Shown here: piece after piece, positions 37,541 through 62,435 of the stretch
Position numbering within the stretch: position 1 is the first letter of the stretch
Layout: each line of letters opens with the position of its first letter
NCBI GenBank assembly: GCA_024663395.1
Contig: JANFAH010000010.1
Span: 620,001-684,000 of the forward strand
Origin: Pisolithus tinctorius
Taxonomy: Eukaryota > Basidiomycota > Agaricomycetes > Boletales > Pisolithaceae
Length of the DNA stretch: 64,000 nucleotides
Direction of reading: 5' to 3'
The notes under the pieces: model-generated
What the model saw: only the letters and a program-made list of their open reading frames with translations
What the model was told of the DNA's origin: nothing
Database searches by the model: none
Made by a program: the position numbers and the translations under genes

Positions 37541-39090
37541 GGTGACAATGACTAGGTAGTGCCTTTTCCTTTTCCATTGCATGTAATGACTGGATCATGT
37601 AGGCTATAAACTAGTAGATTTCAATGACATTGGTTCTCATATCCTATCCTGAGCCCTCACTTTATGGAACCCTGCTGGGTTGTGATTGGTGGTAGAAACC
37701 TGGGCATACACCAAAGTTGGTGCATCACATGAAGATATATATACATGCTACTCTACACTTATTAAACTTCTAGCCCCTACATTCCATGTGGGTGATCTGC
37801 ACCCCCCCTACTGATAGCTGTACAGTGTTTCTCAATGAATGAGGCCAAGCATGTCCAATCAACATTGCAGCATGTGTTAGACACTGTAACTGTGACACAG
37901 TCAAACCCAAGCCCTACACAATTGCTTGAAGCATTTGGCAACTCAACTGCTGTACAAAACCTACTTCCCAATGGTTCATTTTATGCTGTAGTTGTGGGCA
38001 CACCCACTGGTATTCATCACACAAGGTTATTGGCATGACTTATGTTTGTGTAGTGGTTGTCTCAAGTTCTAGCATCCTAGAGATATTGTGACAGCCTCAG
38101 AACAATCATTTGCTTATCCCAAATGGAGAGAGTCATGCACATTCTGGGAAGCTTTGGCTTATTTGATAGTCAAAGGTATTGATGATCACATGCCAGCAAT
38201 GTTAACTACAAGTGCAAGTCACAGCCCTCTGCTGTCACTACCTGGCAAGCAACATTTGTCTAGAACTGTTCTACTATCATGAATCAACTAATCATTGCTC
38301 ACAGGCTGCTCTAGTAATACTATGAGTGTTGGGAGTCTCATGGACAGATTGGCGAGCATCCAGCTTCATGATAGTCCCAGTGCACAGCCCAATCCAAGCC
38401 ACCCACCAGCACTGAGGCAGCCACCAGGCCCACTGAAGCCTGAGCCATGTACTATGACATCAAGGCCTGCTGTGCAAGCATCACAACTGAGTGCAACACT
38501 GTTGCCTGCCTCAGTGTCTGGTATGTATGACATTACTCCAGCTACCTACATTGTTATTAACACTTTAAATAGCCAGCTCGACAGCACCACATACTGTGAC
38601 ATCAAGGCCTGCTGTGCAAGCATCACAATTGAGTGCAACACCATTGCCTGCCTCTGTGCCTGGTATGTATGACATTACTCCAGCTACCTACATTGTTATT
38701 AACACTTTAAATAGCCAGCTCGACAATGACTCAGCAGATTGTGGGCCAGGATCAAGACATGCACTCCCCAATCATCTATTCTCACACACAGACTCTGCAT
38801 GGCATCACACAAACTCAGTATTTCTACTCCATTCCACCCACACAGATGCACCATCACATCCACATGCTCGGTGCCCATGCCACCTGATACCTTGCAGTGC
38901 ACGGATATACACATTCTGCTATTGATATGATCATCAATGTGCTGAATAGCAGCAATTCCGAGCACACTTTTGCACTGACACTCTCACAGCAAGGCATGGT
39001 ATTAGTAGAAGGCGAGTACCTGTGGTACTTGATACATATTCCTGGATGCCATCAGGCCAGGTCTGCAAATTCTTTGTCGCCAATGATCAT
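37541..39090 (+). other. Host segment with a possible RNase H1 N-terminal-like domain gene
   Basis: A short exon at about 37835-38038 contains NGSFYAVVVGTPTGI. A second at about 38088-38260 contains FAYPKWRESCTFWEALAYLIVKG. Together these resemble the caulimovirus viroplasmin/RNase H1 N-terminal fold that binds RNA-DNA hybrids. I see no RNase H catalytic part. The following exons are Pro/Ser-rich and include the tandem duplication at 38451. The gene may be cut by the Harbinger element at 39094. Confidence 0.4.
38451..38734 (+). repeat. Tandem duplication, about 142 bp, two copies
   Basis: Copy 1 is 38451-38592 and copy 2 38593-38734. Both contain ACATCAAGGCCTGCTGTGC and end AGCCAGCTCGACA. 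They differ by a few transitions and small changes. Confidence 0.8.
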
Positions 39091-53796: not shown

Positions 53797-54708
53797 CACG
53801 ATATGTATTTGTGGCCTTAGAAATGTCTTCGCCTCTCAGCGAGCAACAAAATCGTCCGTCAAGGGAAGGGGCACCGAGGCATATGTTCTAAAAGCTAATC
53901 TATTCAAGTTTAGTTGGAAAAGCCTACGTAGTGACATATTATAAGTGACTAAGGCATGGAGATTAATAGGTGTCCCATTAGATAGTTATGCAAATTTTAT
54001 AAGAGGTTCTGCGACTTCCATGGCTATCCGTTGGAGTCACACACAGCGCGAAGGATAGGATCTCAACTGGTGGAGGTAAGGGAGGATAAGGCGGTAGCCA
54101 GAACGCAGCACTCACTGGTGATGCATTTTGGAGACGGAGCTTGGGTCACGTACTGTGGAAGGGAGCAAAGAGACATGTTGCTTGTGGATTTCCCAACTGC
54201 ACGACCGAGTATTGTGGAAGAATGTTTTTGGAAACCAGATCCTCGAGGGAGGAGCTGGGGAAGCCCTACTGTACTACGGTGTCTGGTGTGAAGGACGGGG
54301 CGAGCATGGAAACACAAAGCCGCTGAGAAGATCGGTAGTACGTTTCACCAGGAGCACAACTAGTGCACCTATCGAGCTGGCTTGGTACCGCGGAGAGCAT
54401 GGGACGAGCCCCCCTGATATTGCAATGAGCAATGGAGGATAACAAGGATCGATGGTCGAGTCTTTCTCTCGCCGATACATCACCGGGACGCGGTCAGACG
54501 ACGAGAAGAAATGGGACGGTCCAACAGGAACTTGGTGGTCGTAGTTTACACACGTGTCAGGCTGCGCACCACCGATAGGCACGTTGATTCAACGCAACTT
54601 GACTCCGTAGTCATTTGCCCTTCGCACATCACCACCATCGTTCCCTACAGTCATAGCACGCTACTGCTCGAGACATCCTAAGACCTTTTTGCTCATCTTC
54701 ACATCACC
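53797..54708. other. Intergenic region between URB2 and the GTPase gene
   Basis: No gene recognised. ORFs on both strands around 54031-54582 are short and without motifs. The last 100 bp before 54709 are CT-rich, consistent with a fungal promoter/5' leader. Confidence 0.4.
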
Positions 54709-57700
54709 ATGGCGCCGTGCTCTCTTCGTTCCTGGTGGCGTTCGTTGCGGCGTTCTCAACCTCCGAGTGGCAATGTTGGTGTAATATTCCCCACCGAAGC
54801 CACTTCTTCAGGTGCCCCGGACGCGATCGTCCCTACACGGGCTTCAGATGATTGCTTAGATCCTACCGAGGCCAAAAAGCAGATTGATCGCATCCCTTCT
54901 CAAGCCCCGAGTGGCAATGCTGGTGTGTTACTAGTTCCGATTCCAACTGAAGCCGCTCCTTCATGTTGCTTCGCATGCAGTCATCTCTACACGGGCTTCA
55001 GACGATCACTTGGATCCTGCCGAGCCCAAAAAGCAGATTGATCGCATCCATTCTCAAACACTGAGTCGCAACGCTGGTATATTACTCCCCACTGAAGCCA
55101 CTTCTTCAGTTGCGCCGGATGCAGTCGTCCCTACACAGGTTTCGGACTATCGTTTAGATCCTACCGAGGCCAAAAAGCAGATTGATCGCATCCCTCGTTT
55201 TCGCATTCTTGTGATGGGCAGAGCAAATGCGGGTAAAACGACTGTTTTACAGCGGGTCTGTAAGACTACGGACCAGCCCGAGATCTTCGATGGAAACGGA
55301 GAGAAGGTATGTGCATGTGTCATGTGCTTCGTATTTATAAGCATGTCATTCTGCCAGGTTGATACTGGGGCGGTGGAGGGTTCACTGGGGGTAAGGCCAC
55401 CTCGTGAAATTACATGGTGCTCACATCAAACTTATGCAGCGTGGCTACCATAACATTGAAGATGAGCTAGTGTTTAAAAGTAACCCGCGCTTTGTGTTCC
55501 ATGACTCATGTGGATTTGAGGCGGGGAGCGAGGCAGAGTTTGATGAGATGAAGAAATTTGTTACAGATCAAGCAAAGTCCACAAAGCTGGAGAAGAGAAT
55601 ACATGCAATTTGGTAGGGACATGTCTGACTACTGCCACTGGGGGTCCACTGACCTGGTCTTTGTGATTGATTTAGGTATTGCATTCCATTGAATGAAAGG
55701 CATAGGATGGTCACGGCTGCTGAAAGGAAGTTCTTTAATGAGTGTGATTCAGGACATGGTATGTATACACAAATATCACATCATATTTAGTGCAAGGGTT
55801 TAGGATTTGCAGTTCCTGTGATTGTGCTACTAACAAAGGCAGACACCTTGTATCTTGATGCATTCCAAAAGGTTAGGAGAAGGGGGTTAACTACAGATGA
55901 TGCAAAGACAAAGGTGCCGGAGGTAGAAAGACAGCTGCAAAAGGGCTGTCTGGAAAAGATCAAAGGGTGGCTGAATGAACTGATGTTTCCACCTCAAAGC
56001 TACCTGATGCTCACTGGTAAGTAAGTCATGAATAAAAAAAACTGCAGATTGGCATGTGTCTCTCCAGGCATGGAACAGGAGAGTGCAGATTGTGCAGAGC
56101 TATTGAGATGCACAGCAAATGCTTTGACAGAGGAAGGGCTGCGAGGACTGCTTATATCATCTCAACAGTCAAACTTGGGACTCTGCATGGAATTTGCCAT
56201 AATGAAGTGAGCAGTAAAAATGAAGTTCTACAGGGTACTGATTACAGAAAGGACATTGAGGAGGGCCATGATCAGTGTGGCTAAGCAGGACCTGGACAGC
56301 TTACTATATGAGCTTGTATTATGGTTCCCATTTGTAAGCAACAGTGTGTTGGGGGAATTAGAGGCTAATTAGGTGATAGGTGGTGTGTGAAATTCTGCAA
56401 GAGCAAGTATAACTGATACTAAAGGTGATTGTGGTTGTTGTGTTGGACTGTGGTTTACAGAAAGTGAGCAGAGTCATGGCAGATGGTGGTGGATGCATGC
56501 TGACATGTTCACTCCCACTCTGTTGCACTGGGGTTCATAGTATGTAAGTGGAGTCATACCAGATGACAGTAGATGCATGTTGATTGTTCACCCTCCCTGC
56601 TGGACTGGGGTTCATAGTATGTAAGTGGAATCATGGCAGATGGTGGTGGATGCATGCTGATGTGTTCACTCCCACCCTGTTGGACTGGGGCTCATAGGAA
56701 GTGAGTGGAGTCATGGCAGATGGTGGTGGATGCATGCTGACATGTTCACTCCCACCCTGTTGCACTGGGGTTCATAGTTTGTGAGTGGAATCATGGCAGA
56801 TGGTGGTGGATGCATGCTGACATGTTCACTCCCACCCTGTTGGACTGGGGCTCATAGCCTGTGGGTGGAGTGATGGCAGATGGTGGTGGATGCATGCTGA
56901 CTTGTTCACTCCCAACCTGTTGGACTGGGGTTCATAGTATGTGAGTGGAGTGATGGCAGATGGTGGTGAATGCATGCTTACATGTTCACACCCACCCTGT
57001 TGCACTGGGGTTCATAGCATGTGAGCAGAATCATGGCAGATGGTGGTGGATGCATGCTGACATGTTCACTCCCACCCTGTTGGACTGGGGTTCATAGGGA
57101 GTGAGTGGAGTCATGGCAGATGGTGGTGGATGCATGCTGACATGTTCACTCCCACCCTGTTGCACTGGGGTTCATAGTTTGTGAGTGGAATCATGGCAGA
57201 TGGTGGTGGATGCATGCTGACATGTTCACTCCCACCCTGTTGGACTGGGGCTCATAGCCTGTGGGTGGAGTGATGGCAGATGGTGGTGGATGCATGCTGA
57301 CATGTTCACTCCCACCCTGTTGGACTTGGGTTCATAGGTTGTGAGTGGAGCCGTGGCAGATGGTGGTGGATGCATGCTGACATGTTCACTCTCACCCTGT
57401 TGCACTGGGGTTCATAGACAGTGAGTGGAGTCATGGCAGATGGTGGTGAATGCATGCTGACATGTTCACTCCCACCCTGTTGGACTTGGGTTCATAGGTT
57501 GTGAGTGGAGCCATGGCAGATGGTGCTGGATGCACACTGACATGTTCACTCCCACCCTGTTGCACTGGGGTTCATAGGGAGTGAGTGGAGTGATGGCAGA
57601 TGGTGGTGGATGCATGCTGACATGTTCACTCCCACCCTGTTGCACTGGGGTTCATAGTTTGTGAGTGGAATCATGGCAGATGGTGGTGGATGCATGCTGA

Positions 57701-59019
57701 CATGTCCACTCCCACCCTGTTGGACTGGGGCTCATAGGAAGTGAGTGGAGTCATGACAGGTGGTGGTGGATGCATGCTGACATGTTCACTCCCACCCTGT
57801 TGGACTGTGGTTCATAGACAGTGAGTGGAGTCACAGCAGATGGTGGTGGGTGCACACTGACATGTTCACTTCCCCCTTGCTGGACTGGGGTTCATAGGTT
57901 GTGAGTGGAGCCATGGTAGGCAGTGGAGGATGCATGCTAACTATATTCATCACTGCTTTGCTTGACTTGCATGCATAGGATGTGAGTGGATGGATGCAAA
58001 ATGGTGGCCATGGATAGTTGCTGAATGTGATTCTCTCTCCTACCCCATTGCATTTGCATTCATAGCATGTGAGTTATGTTGTGGCAGCATTGCATCTGCT
58101 GGAGGAAAATATATACTCACAATCCCCATTACTTCACTTTTGGCCTCTGGATCTTAGAGAGTGAGTGTTGTGGACATTCCCAATTTAGCATGCTTTTCAC
58201 AGGGTCTTCTCATCAAACAGATGGTGAGCTTGATCACTGCATGTATCTCTACTATATTGTTGAGACATTGCCTTAGGATGTAGGTGCAATCTTTTGATGG
58301 AGTATGCCTTTTTTCTTATTTCTCTGTTGTTCTCAGCATGTTAGTTGTTAAATTATAATTTCTCTAAATTCCTGGCAAAGTTTAACCTATTTCCAGAATG
58401 TATGGTTTTGTTCAACATCCCACACTCATTCATTGCCCATATGTTTTACAGTTGGTTTGTCACTCTTTTTCCTTCTTCAACATTGGTTCCTGTTTTACCC
58501 TTTGTATCTTGTTAGGTGGTATGTTTCAATTCCTTTTCCCCCTTAGCTGTCTATGATGTGTTGAATTGGTTGGTCACAGAATCCCATTCAAGTTGACAGC
58601 ACTTACATCTCTGTCTTTCAATTGTCCACATCAAGGCAGCCTTCCCAGATGGCACTTGCAGAACATGCCATTGGTAAATTATCTCTTGATACTTCTTTAA
58701 TCTGAAGTTCATGATTACAGGTTGTGTAATTGCCTTTGAATACTTGTTTTTCAAGTTGCAGGTCAGGGGTGGGAGTACTACACAGATGGATTTGTGGCCA
58801 GATCTGCATGAGATTGTCTGGGAATATTGCACATCAGGTGTCCAAAAAATTGTTAATGCACGCATTGCAGAAGCCTTCCAGCAGCATGGTGAAAGTGTGG
58901 ATGATTTATGCTCCATGCTTGTGGGTATAGCACAGGCAAACCAGATGTGTAAGACATTCTTTATCACAATGTTGGAAGTCCTATTTGAACTGTCCACAGC
59001 AAAGAAATTCCTGAAATGA
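54709..59019 (+). CDS. P-loop GTPase-like protein with a micro-exon array
   Basis: Resembles the G-domain proteins common in Agaricomycetes; the cellular role is unknown. The N-terminus has three repeats of about 45 residues. The Walker A motif is GRANAGKTT (55215-55241), followed by FVFHDSCGFEAG (switch II-like, DxxG replaced) and VLLTKADTLYL (G4, TKAD). Introns include 55307-55357, 55391-55439, 55617-55676, 55760-55811 and 56021-56069. The exon ending LLYELVLWFPF stops at 56333. Then come 28 predicted 3-nt exons (56461-58518). The last exons (58580-58711 and from 58730) encode NPIQVDSTYISVFQLSTSR, EHAIG-CVIAFEYLFFKLQ and a helical C-terminus to TGA 59017. A 1-nt difference in the second N-terminal repeat (or an intron at 54920-54983) needs checking. 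Confidence 0.7.
54775..55195 (+). repeat. Three N-terminal coding repeats of the GTPase gene
   Basis: Three copies of a unit of about 135-145 bp encode PTEATSSxAPDA...DPTEAKKQIDRI. Copy 2 has one extra nucleotide in the GAAGCC...CTACAC block (46 against 45 nt). A cryptic GTGTGT...GCATGCAG intron spans that region. Confidence 0.8.
56464..58065 (+). repeat. 80-bp minisatellite whose units are introns plus one codon
   Basis: About 20 units. Each runs GTGAGT(GG)...ATGCTGACATGTTCACTCCCA...TTCATAG (74-84 nt, mostly 77) and then 3 nt before the next GTGAG. Two units have GTGGGT. The 3-nt gap starts at 56541, 56618, 56698, 56778 and so on in 80-nt steps to 57898, then 57979 and 58066. The triplets vary (TAT, GAA, TTT, CCT, CAT, GGA, GTT, ACA, GAT) while the intron-like parts are nearly uniform. 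Confidence 0.85.
58066..58579 (+). other. Diverged continuation of the micro-exon series
   Basis: The sequence is no longer repetitive, yet AG-NNN-GT recurs at intron-sized spacing. Triplets: 58066 CAT, 58158 AGA, 58221 ATG, 58277 GAT, 58337 CAT, 58397 AAT, 58452 TTG, 58516 GTG. The segments between are 89, 60, 53, 57, 57, 52, 61 and 61 nt. They begin GTGAGT, GTGAGT, GTGAGC, GTAGGT, GTTAGT, GTATGG, GTTTGT and GTATGT and end in pyrimidine-rich AG. Confidence 0.7.
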
Positions 59020-59778: not shown

Positions 59779-60375
59779 ATGTTGCAACCCCAAGATGACC
59801 ACTTGTTCAGGAGGATATCCTTTCAGGGACTACCACACTCAATAATTAAGAATGTTTTTGAAGCTTGCAGAATATCTGCTGAGCACTCAACAATCATGAA
59901 AATCCTTGAAGAGGTATGCTGCATGGAAATGGTACAGAAGGCCATAAACATGCATATGAGAATGAGCCATGCTGGCTTTGGAGGGAAACCTCCCAGGGAT
60001 AAAGTGGTTCATGCCCACACAGCAAGAGGACTGATCAACACTCTTCATCTAATGAAAGCTTTAAATACATAAAGAAAGGGGATACCATTTATTGAAGAAA
60101 GACAAATCTTCCAATGAAGAGCAACAGACTCCTGGGGAAGGATGGTGCAGACCATCAATCTTGTCAATGAGAGCAGGATCACTTGTATGGTAAGGGGAAA
60201 CAACCCCAGAAGTTCCTAGCAGGGATCACCTGCTTCAATTGCAACAAGGAGGGCCATATTGCTCCTGATTGTCCCTTCCTAAAAAGGATAAAGGCAAAAG
60301 TGCAGCAAAGCTGTGACTGTTCACAGTCAATGTCCAAGAGGACACACAGGGTGAGCATATATACCTATCTTGTCT
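59779..60375 (+). pseudogene. Retrotransposon gag remnant with zinc knuckle
   Basis: The first part (59779-60072) reads LQPQDDHLFRRISFQGLP and ISAEHSTIMKILEEV, typical of basidiomycete retroelement gag. After stops, the frame at 60183-60300 has FNCNKEGHIAPDC (C-X2-C-X4-H-X4-C). No LTRs or pol are found next to it. Confidence 0.7.
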
Positions 60376-60891
60376 GACTGCAGCAATGCTCAGTTCAGAC
60401 TGTCAGTCAGTCAGGTTTCTTGCCTCAAGGTAACCTCATGTAACTCTCTAGAATGTTCCATTCCACTATGATGTCACCCCTGACATCATGCCCACTACCT
60501 AGTTACCATGCTGTACTCCTCATGTGCTGTAGTATAAGTACCATTCTCAATACCCAGACAAGCTTCTCCTAAGCTAGTTCATTTGGGTCTTTGAGCCCAT
60601 TTACAACCTTGTGTTAAGTCTTACCACACTTGAACTACTAACTTCACTGTCTTGAATCTTTGCACCCAGACTCATCCAGAGTTAAGGAGATCATTGCCGC
60701 ATGTGCCCCAGCTGCCAGAGTCTTACTCTTGGTAGCTTCAACTAACATCATTCCTTGCTTCCTTTTTTTTGGTGGATGCAAATGCTAGGAAGGCAACTGA
60801 CTAAGTCAGCCCCTTAGTAGCAGGTTTGGATTTGGGGTTTGCACCCAAGGATCATATCAAAGCATAATCATATAATCATAAACCCATAGTG
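60376..60891. other. No recognised feature
   Basis: AT-rich sequence between the gag remnant and the foldback element. No ORF or repeat of note. Confidence 0.3.
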
Positions 60892-62435
60892 CAGTGGCTC
60901 AAAAAACTGTCTGCATGTTTGTATATTTTACATTAGTTATGACTAACTAAATGCAATAACCCCTAACCCTAGCCCTAAACCATGAGTGTATGAAATAAGG
61001 TACTTACTCTTGGCTTTCTATTGGTCCATGAATCAAGTGATTTGGATAGGAATTGATAGAATAGCAGCCATTTGAAAATGTCATGTCATGCAGACAGTTT
61101 TTTGACTTAAAGTTTTGATTACATAGTTTTGAGTTTAACAAAGTTTAAAATGCTGTGAGGTGCTTACTAATGCTTACATGGTATATCACATGGACTATTT
61201 GATGATTTGTCATCATACAAACAATGCAAAACAATGAATTGGGACCATCAAGGCTCCCTCTTCTACCCCAACTCATGCAACCATCCTCCTGGTCCATCTG
61301 GGCCATTTTCTCAGAGTAATGCCCATAAATATTGGTGCCACTACAGTAATGTCATCAGGGTATATGTCCAACACAATCAAACCCTTAAAAAATCTGCTTT
61401 CAGTCATCCCTGTGCTGTTTCCCCCACCCATACCTGACATGTTCTGCAACTAATCAGTACTGAGAATGCTGGAAATGCCATGGAGGTCAATCCAGCACAT
61501 CAGGAAATGATGAACAAACAAAACACCTTTTAACCAGTGCATTTTCACCCCAGTGCAACTAGTTTCAATGCTGAGGTGAGACAAAACATTTCTGTGCACT
61601 TCAGGTGGCATGGGAAGCAAGAGAATGGGTGATTTGGTTATATAAGACCATAGGTAATACTCAGGGCTAGATGGAGTGATGGAATCTCCCTCCTAATAGT
61701 TCAGTGGACTATCCCCCCCAGGGCACCTGGACTGTAATGAAGAGTTTTAGTCCACCCTAGCCCTCAACCCAGCACCCCTGAGGTGGAAACCCACCAGATA
61801 AGAGGTGATTGGATTGTTGGTCATGTTTTACAGTGCCAGATTAACCATCATGGCTTTTTCAGCATCCTCAGTACTGATTAGTTGCAGAACATGTCAGATA
61901 TGGGTGGGGGAAACAGCACAGGGATGACTGAAAGCAGATTTTTTAAGGGTTTGATTGTGTTGGACATATACCCTGATGACATTACTGTAGTGGCACCAAT
62001 ATTTATGGGCATTACTCTGAGAAAATGGCCCAGATGGACCAGGAGGATGGTTGCATGAGTTGGGGTAGAAGAGGGAGCCTTGATGGTCCCAATTCATTGT
62101 TTTGCATTGTTTGTATGATGACAAATCATCAAATAGTCCATGTGATATACCATGTAAGCATTAGTAAGCACCTCACAGCATTTTAAACTTTGTTAAACTC
62201 AAAACTATGTAATCAAAACTTTAAGTCAAAAAACTGTCTGCATGACATGACATTTTCAAATGGCTGCTATTCTATCAATTCCTATCCATATCACTTGATT
62301 CATGGACCAATAGAAAGCCAAGAGTAAGTACCTTATTTCATACACTCATGGTTTAAGGCTAGGGTTAGGGGTTATCACATTTAGTCATAACTAGTGTAAA
62401 ATATGCAAACATGTGGACAGTTTTTTGAGCCACTG
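60892..62435. mobile_element. Foldback/MITE-like element with ~600-bp inverted arms
   Basis: The left arm (60892-61497) and the right arm (62435-61831) are near-identical reverse complements, starting CAGTGGCTCAAAAAACTGTC. The loop is about 330 bp. Each arm holds the same 76-codon ORF and a degenerate telomere-like stretch (CCCCTAACCCTAGCC). The ends look like those of a DNA transposon. No transposase gene is present and no clear target duplication was found. Confidence 0.8.

Follow-up and report, generated by a model that had tools for sequence, protein, structure and literature searches.

Predicted one-codon exons in tandem within a GTPase gene of Pisolithus tinctorius and in a genome-wide family of arrays

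Is the 2.2-kb stretch between two coding exons of a GTPase-like gene in the ectomycorrhizal basidiomycete Pisolithus tinctorius a single intron, or is it read in some more elaborate way? The gene lies in a window of 64,000 nucleotides (nt), the whole stretch of DNA analyzed here (positions 620,001 to 684,000 of contig JANFAH010000010.1, assembly GCA_024663395.1), and the part in question occupies window positions 56334-58579. A first-pass annotation had proposed that it holds 28 consecutive exons of one codon each. All 28 triplets were found at the proposed starts, each preceded by AG and trailed by GT, with the proposed phase and intron sizes (127 nt for the first, 52-89 nt for the rest); none of the 28 is a stop codon, again as had been stated. 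Joined, they spell the 28-residue peptide KYYEFPYHGFPVTVGFETVDHRMDHNLV. The 28 exons of the window gene, which are predicted from homology and sequence, are very probably spliced into a peptide of that length between the GTPase and C-terminal parts of the protein. The features concerned are, in window coordinates:

56252-56333, + strand: final exon before the array, ending WFPF in phase 0, acceptor AAAG/G, with the AG shared by the paralogs displayed
56334-56460, + strand: intron leading into the array; its length is 127-128 nt in the 13 loci displayed
56441-57938, + strand: tandem array of 80-nt repeats (77-nt intron plus 3-nt exon), located with Tandem Repeats Finder (18.8 copies, 87% matches)
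56461-57900, + strand: 19 predicted one-codon exons of the repeated part, starting at 56461, 56541, 56618 and then in 80-nt steps from 56698 to 57898, read as K Y Y E F P Y H G F P V T V G F E T V
57979-58068, + strand: predicted one-codon exons at 57979 (GAT) and 58066 (CAT), from the triplet check and paralogs
58158-58518, + strand: conserved tail of seven predicted one-codon exons starting at 58158, 58221, 58277, 58337, 58397, 58452 and 58516, with codons AGA ATG GAT CAT AAT TTG GTG (RMDHNLV)
58580-58673, + strand: first ordinary exon past the array (NPIQVDSTYISVFQLS...AEHAI); 19 of the 20 paralogs match

Chains of AG, an exon of k nt and GT were searched from the donor at 56334 to the acceptor at 58579, with introns of 45-130 nt allowed and k set from 0 to 15. 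The chain was complete for k = 3 alone. The same was the sole working exon length when the non-repeated end, 57982-58579, was taken by itself, and the full chain appeared in none of 2000 dinucleotide-preserving shuffles of this part. The last eight steps had been described as non-repetitive in sequence while keeping the spacing of 3 nt; the spacing was borne out, and the number was corrected to nine triplets, from 57979 onward, the last seven of which are conserved in paralogs. The CTGAC said to precede the AG of the repeat-derived introns was present in most of them and not elsewhere (15 of 29 introns, none of the last nine).

Protein records (150) were compared with the joined triplets, and 49 of them were read around the WFP motif. 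Record P0135 reproduces 43 of 43 consecutive triplets of the genomic locus C109 in order, its 44th and last residue being different. It derives from a 1,695-nt contig of the source lgn, apparently a set of contigs assembled from public sequencing runs, RNA among them, and it ends with DLPPYEQPQYQQQEGETREQWYERRYQEEQEQEQQHEQEYQEQQ after WFPNTK. In C109 (L054, L055), the best genomic match to P0135 (exon identity 86-96% across the pieces listed), WFPNTK is followed by an 82-nt tandem array in which one donor is GC; contiguous frames of the locus contain at most three consecutive residues of the P0135 array peptide. Record P0004 (BKA82DRAFT_4223615), from the contig of locus L032, reads WFPF-HLVVDGGQGHYGLVGHYGLLV-VDVLRGGHHVDYVRRYGDLDYNR and carries 44 of 45 consecutive L032 triplets, with one glycine absent. 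Its WFPF is fused directly to the L032 triplet 128 nt past the donor, and an extra first triplet placed about 47 nt past the array donor by dynamic-programming chains was rejected as spurious for this reason. Insofar as such chains may include other spurious codons, stricter parses were used for the unit statistics. Joined triplets in a shifted frame were found in P0001 (12 residues, L048) and P0002 (14 residues, L047). Peptides at the array position are present in P0061, P0064 and P0089, as known from the protein records. P0006 was considered as a truncated product of L038 and was set aside: its tail resembles a translated unit, yet it occurs in no forward frame of the fetched loci.

Were the stretch a single 2.2-kb intron carrying a minisatellite, with AG-NNN-GT arising incidentally from a repeat unit that resembles an intron, direct joining of the two flanks would be expected, and it is seen in the models P0003, P0034 and P0120. 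The joined triplets of P0135 and P0004 contradict this explanation for those sister genes, and two further properties of the triplets and the tail stand against it.

The first is that the triplets behave as codons. Position-specific composition predicts 41.8 stops for the 653 units parsed in 21 loci, yet none was found, and the joined triplets contain stops in 0 of 653, 3 of 632 and 98 of 632 positions in the three frames; the units being related by descent, these counts are not independent trials. Genome-wide, the 1,229 units with exact flanks include no TAA, TAG or TGA and seven TGG. Among 371 exact-flank units of a different, 82-nt type there are likewise no stops; TRR occurs 34 times and TRA and TAG never, so that all 34 are TGG. 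Entropy over the 653 units was 1.90, 1.85 and 1.27 bits at the three triplet sites and 0.0-0.94 bits at flanking sites, where the invariance of AG and GT was set by the search pattern. Stop avoidance and hypervariability fall on the same 3 nt. The third triplet base is almost never C, as could be explained if CpG had been lost at the junction with the donor G: the array at 56461-57938 holds 1 CpG in 1,478 nt (observed to expected ratio 0.01, versus 0.456 for the window), and the 5' part of the gene beside it, 54700-56333, holds 53. This loss suggests methylation-driven mutation in the array. Among the core arrays of 20 loci serine accounts for 2 of 599 codons and methionine for none, and G, Y, D, L and R are most frequent.

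The second property is the conservation of the tail. All seven tail exons are kept, with few changes, in 18 of the 19 loci compared; in L049 the chain skips the AAT exon, where the acceptor reads GG and not AG. The tail introns vary in length by one to several nt, not all of them multiples of three, and the exons stay at 3 nt. Near-constant triplets separated by introns of varying length are hard to reconcile with a single intron, and that explanation is considered extremely improbable. For the gene family, the proposal that a peptide is written one codon at a time is supported by P0135, P0004, the avoidance of stops and the variability of the triplets.

The window array is one of many. A DNA search with one array piece returned 386 matches, and 20 further loci were fetched around array matches. 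All 20 of these GTPase loci contain arrays, preceded by the P-loop exon and exon 3; downstream exons were matched in 19, the exception being L045, which has no downstream exon match and stands outside the 20 chained loci. With the window, 21 array loci were parsed, and further ones were listed. A strict parse gave 5-70 core units per locus (20 loci). The exon 3 query matched the genome 150 times, and the paralogous family is an expanded one. Two of the fetched loci, L035 and L036, lie on separate contigs and have almost the same sequence (99.94% identity), and L036 was excluded from the comparisons of intron-triplet linkage, unit differences, tails and substitution ratios. The exon 5 match is whole in L036 and in two pieces in L035, where a small indel or an assembly error may be responsible. 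The 82-nt unit forms a second array family in another GTPase subfamily, with one GC-AG intron (L054, 365-3501, and L055).

Near-identical introns with splice signals could also have arisen in the manner of introners, an ancestral, uninterrupted coding segment having been split codon from codon by insertions of a 77-nt intron element. The pattern TTCATAGNNNGTGAGTGG has 1,907 genome matches with at most one mismatch (4 for the reversed control) and 1,229 exact matches (control 0), and in distant homologs, P0111 for example, the protein record shows a linker at the array position. Insertion after every codon, always in phase 0 and leaving 3-nt exons throughout, would nevertheless be unexpected. 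Introners would be looked for in varied genes, whereas of 12 array clusters on contigs C2 and C4, taken from the matches listed, 10 follow a GTPase exon of the same strand at a distance of 0.8-1.8 kb. Two arrays of 80-nt units, C2:4832020-4832575 and C4:58989-60621, have no nearby GTPase exon 3 match among those listed, and may be relics or belong to other host genes.

The variation among units bears on the same question. For 599 units with flanks at most 16 mismatches from the consensus, units of the same locus differed by 0.064 per intron site versus 0.622 per triplet site. There were 560 same-locus pairs with identical 80-nt surroundings; the triplet was equal in 133 and different in 427, by one base in 110 pairs, two in 169 and three in 148, and no difference was synonymous. 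A single codon per amino acid was used within a locus in 115 of 122 cases; the seven multi-codon cases compare with a mean of 29 (minimum 23) over 500 shuffles of codons among loci. The unit with the most similar intron carried the same triplet in 171 of 630 cases versus 81.5 expected. Loci L048 and L051, which share 99.45% identity across 2,553 nt, differ near the array start by three whole units (GGG GAA AGA). This pattern fits a history in which whole units were duplicated, dropped or rearranged, the introns becoming homogenized and selection holding the codons apart. Block repeats and the use of one codon per amino acid in a locus point to tandem duplication of the unit together with its codon, and an introner-like origin is regarded as quite improbable. 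A bolder proposal, to which little probability is given, is a codon-cassette system: each intron unit would be the carrier of one swappable codon, rewritten by a dedicated process (recombination aimed at the units, or templated triplet replacement) that spares the introns almost entirely, as the 317 pairs with two or three changed bases and no synonymous change might suggest, and the GTPase family would form an evolving library of recognition peptides, spelled residue by residue and convergent with the NOD-like receptors (NLRs) of truffles.

Several observations weigh against codon-by-codon splicing of the window array, or against parts of it. A protein search with residues 270-410 of the window gene returned 16 candidates, none scored, and no record of its own array peptide. 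The lgn contig behind P0135 is cDNA as we infer from its content. Sharing of at least seven consecutive residues with the 20 chained loci was found for 3 of the 150 records, namely P0004 in frame and P0001 and P0002 in shifted frames. P0004 itself leaves the array after NR and continues into LSQVKDSG (locus L032); both the post-array exon and most of the tail are missing from it. The last six tail exons are predicted from conservation: the sole tail codon in any record compared is the first (R), after which P0004 exits, and P0135 stops earlier, so that the evidence from records stops short of the last six codons, which occur in none. The motif CTRAY, a looser form of CTGAC, is present in 18 of the 29 window introns and in none of the last nine, and branch sites were dropped as evidence for the tail. 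Of the 49 records inspected, 10 have no WFP motif and 20 break off no more than 34 residues past it; the flanks are joined directly in at least 7 of the remaining 19 (P0003, P0025, P0028, P0030, P0034, P0052 and P0120). For the first six of these the loci may be without arrays. P0120, a close relative of P0135, skips the array that P0135 has spliced. Non-productive or array-less transcripts may be common, or these record models may be wrong.

Constraint was also assessed on the coding exons by the ratio of nonsynonymous to synonymous differences per site (pN/pS), with full-length gapless exon matches alone (19, 19 and 17 loci). The GTPase exons tested are constrained, with pN/pS of 0.16 (exon 3, 19 loci) and 0.22, and the C-terminal exon is not: for window positions 58762-58948 and paralogs the ratio was 1.02 over 17 loci, with no stop. 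This exon could be relaxed or diversifying, and the possibility of weak constraint behind the array is a further point against the proposed reading.

The records that end early, those that join the flanks directly and the skipping in P0120 can be accommodated if the array has a regulatory or non-productive role, in which retention of an array intron or skipping of the whole array is dominant and yields a truncated or short GTPase, and codon-by-codon splicing is a minor by-product. P0061 and P0089, where an array-like peptide is followed by sequence resembling a translated intron unit, agree with this. The short gene models are possibly prediction errors, and such a device would leave unexplained why 1,600 exact-flank units of both types are free of stops, why triplets are specific to their locus, why stops are distributed 0, 3 and 98 over the frames and why the tail is conserved. 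It is therefore judged an unlikely account, and splicing of the one-codon exons into a peptide is preferred.

The exons upstream of the array encode a P-loop GTPase and those downstream a C-terminal part. The remaining features of the window gene are:

54709-55195, + strand: likely 5' coding part (MAPCSLRSWWRSLRRSQPP...), from reading frames and closely similar N-termini in P0005, P0006 and P0017; PTEAKKQIDRIP segments are repeated internally and exon limits are approximate
55196-55306, + strand: P-loop exon (RFRILVMGRANAGKTT...), matched in 20 of 20 fetched paralogs
55358-55390, + strand: GTPase exon 2, with closely similar residues in P0001 and P0004
55440-55612, + strand: GTPase exon 3 (RGYHNIEDELVF...HAIW), matched in 20 of 20 fetched paralogs
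55676-55758, + strand: GTPase exon 4, from the gene model
55813-56016, + strand: GTPase exon 5 (VPVIVLLTKADTL...), from paralog matches and the gene model
56068-56206, + strand: GTPase exon 6, from the gene model
58721-58948, + strand: C-terminal exon (GCVIAFEYLFFKLQVRGG...AQANQM), with the same frame in P0001-P0003
59000-59019, + strand: last exon, SKKFLK and stop; P0002 also ends SKKFLK

With the 28 codons included, the frame is open to the stop and gives 416 residues counted from the P-loop exon, and the phases of the flanking exons match the conserved reading frames of paralogs. P0001 and P0004 read ...AIMKTLK... at the exon 56252-56333, for which an acceptor at 56248 was rejected in favor of 56252, which suits the paralogs displayed. 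A 5-nt exon at 58721-58725 was also rejected, as P0001-P0003 read GCVIVFECLFFQLQ uninterrupted there. The window gene contains GRANAGKT and LLTKAD, which we take to be the G1 motif GxxxxGK[ST] and the NKxD/TKxD-type motif of P-loop GTPases; residues G47, G52, K53, T180, K181 and D183 are invariant over 49 aligned proteins. A Pfam scan, made with a gene model that had one faulty post-array junction, gave weak hits below cut-off to Arf, MMR_HSR1, Septin, GTP_EFTU and RsgA and no NACHT hit, so that the combination of NACHT and ankyrin was not found with that model. A specific domain name was not adopted, the GTPase hits being weak throughout (the best was to septins, E 8e-4, for P0025). The predicted structure of P0004 has a mean predicted local distance difference test (pLDDT) score of 67, with a confident GTPase core and low confidence over residues 314-382, which include the array peptide; the array part scores below 50. 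The 50 best rows of a fold search were mostly G-protein complexes, with murine IRGa6 at rank 26, and a function was not assigned from these generic G-protein folds.

How such a gene might be expressed can be outlined. Every short intron (52-89 nt) has its GT and AG, and CTGAC is present in most of those in the repeated part; under intron definition these introns would be removed singly, and each one-codon exon would be fused to the growing exon. As all of these exons are 3 nt long and in phase 0, skipping or duplicating any unit would keep the frame; P0004, with one codon of 45 missing, exemplifies an in-frame codon loss in a record. The near-identical introns could serve as recombination handles, through which unequal exchange would duplicate, delete and rearrange units along with their codons, while the codons would be kept different by selection acting on the peptide. 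The array peptide would then be a disordered, variable insert of an expanded GTPase family. Its most likely use, put forward tentatively from the expansion, the variability and the parallel with truffles described below, would be in the recognition of other individuals or organisms. The design likely lets the fungus add, drop and swap single residues in a large family of variable GTPases.

Runs of small exons have been described before. In schistosomes, micro-exon genes string together small symmetric exons, most of them exceeding one codon, and encode variable proteins; these proteins are unrelated to the Pisolithus GTPases and have the small-exon runs in common with them. The first-pass annotation knew of no described gene like that of the window, a statement that does not hold: in the NACHT-ANK (nank) genes of Tuber melanosporum, dozens, tens or multiple codon-sized (3-bp) exons are reported (Iotti et al. 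2012, as cited in excerpts of PMC4986451, PMC3689799, PMC10197012 and PMC9815663). According to these excerpts, the two systems share dozens of 3-bp exons, an expanded family of nucleotide-binding proteins and the ectomycorrhizal nature of the fungus, and the truffle arrays are proposed to diversify a sensor region, comparable to the putative recognition peptide of Pisolithus. They differ in that the truffle is an ascomycete with NACHT-ANK proteins, whereas Pisolithus is a basidiomycete with GTPases that gave no NACHT hit. Truffle diversity is also described there as alternative splicing, whereas that of Pisolithus is written in the DNA of each locus. Alternative splicing of the tiny exons may occur in Pisolithus too, where one codon of 45 is missing from P0004 and some models skip or truncate the array.

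Fungal NLRs of the hnwd family carry hypervariable, near-identical repeats under concerted evolution (excerpts of PMC4986451 and PMC9815663). As far as these excerpts go, near-identical tandem units, a few highly variable positions, repeat exchange and an expanded family are shared with Pisolithus. The hnwd-type unit is a coding WD, ANK or TPR repeat, whereas the repeated Pisolithus unit is an intron of which 3 of 80 nt are coding, and thus not a hypervariable coding repeat of the kind found in fungal NLRs. Isolated tiny exons are reported for Arabidopsis (a 1-nt exon, PMC4674806), Drosophila homothorax (a 3-bp exon, PMC7392893) and Trichoderma Xlr2 (a microexon, PMC11121469). In these cases near-minimal exons are spliced singly, whereas the Pisolithus arrays have tens of units. 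No description of the Pisolithus arrays was found in the literature searched, a collection thin in subscription journals. The kind of array is already known; its presence in basidiomycete GTPases, its genome-wide scale and the locus-specific codons encoded in DNA are new, not having been found in that literature.

If spliced as predicted, these arrays reduce exons to a single codon across the genome, and the spliceosome would excise tens of short introns serially, leaving 3 nt between each pair, so that questions of exon and intron definition become testable. They would also represent a natural design for protein diversification in which gain, loss or exchange of a unit stays in frame and changes one residue. 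Taken with the truffle case, they suggest that one solution was arrived at by two ectomycorrhizal lineages of separate phyla, each in its own kind of nucleotide-binding protein; the shared life style is suggestive only. As gene models miss arrays, P0120 skipping one that is spliced in P0135, similar arrays may be overlooked elsewhere.

Other features were observed in the window. An open reading frame with a CCHC zinc knuckle (CFNCNKEGHIAPDC) at 60171-60377 is likely a retroelement remnant. An inverted repeat at 60946-61614 and 61717-62385 has 669-nt arms, 92% complementary, around a spacer of 102 nt, and a direct repeat of 142 nt at 38450-38725 has 1.9 copies with 95% matches.

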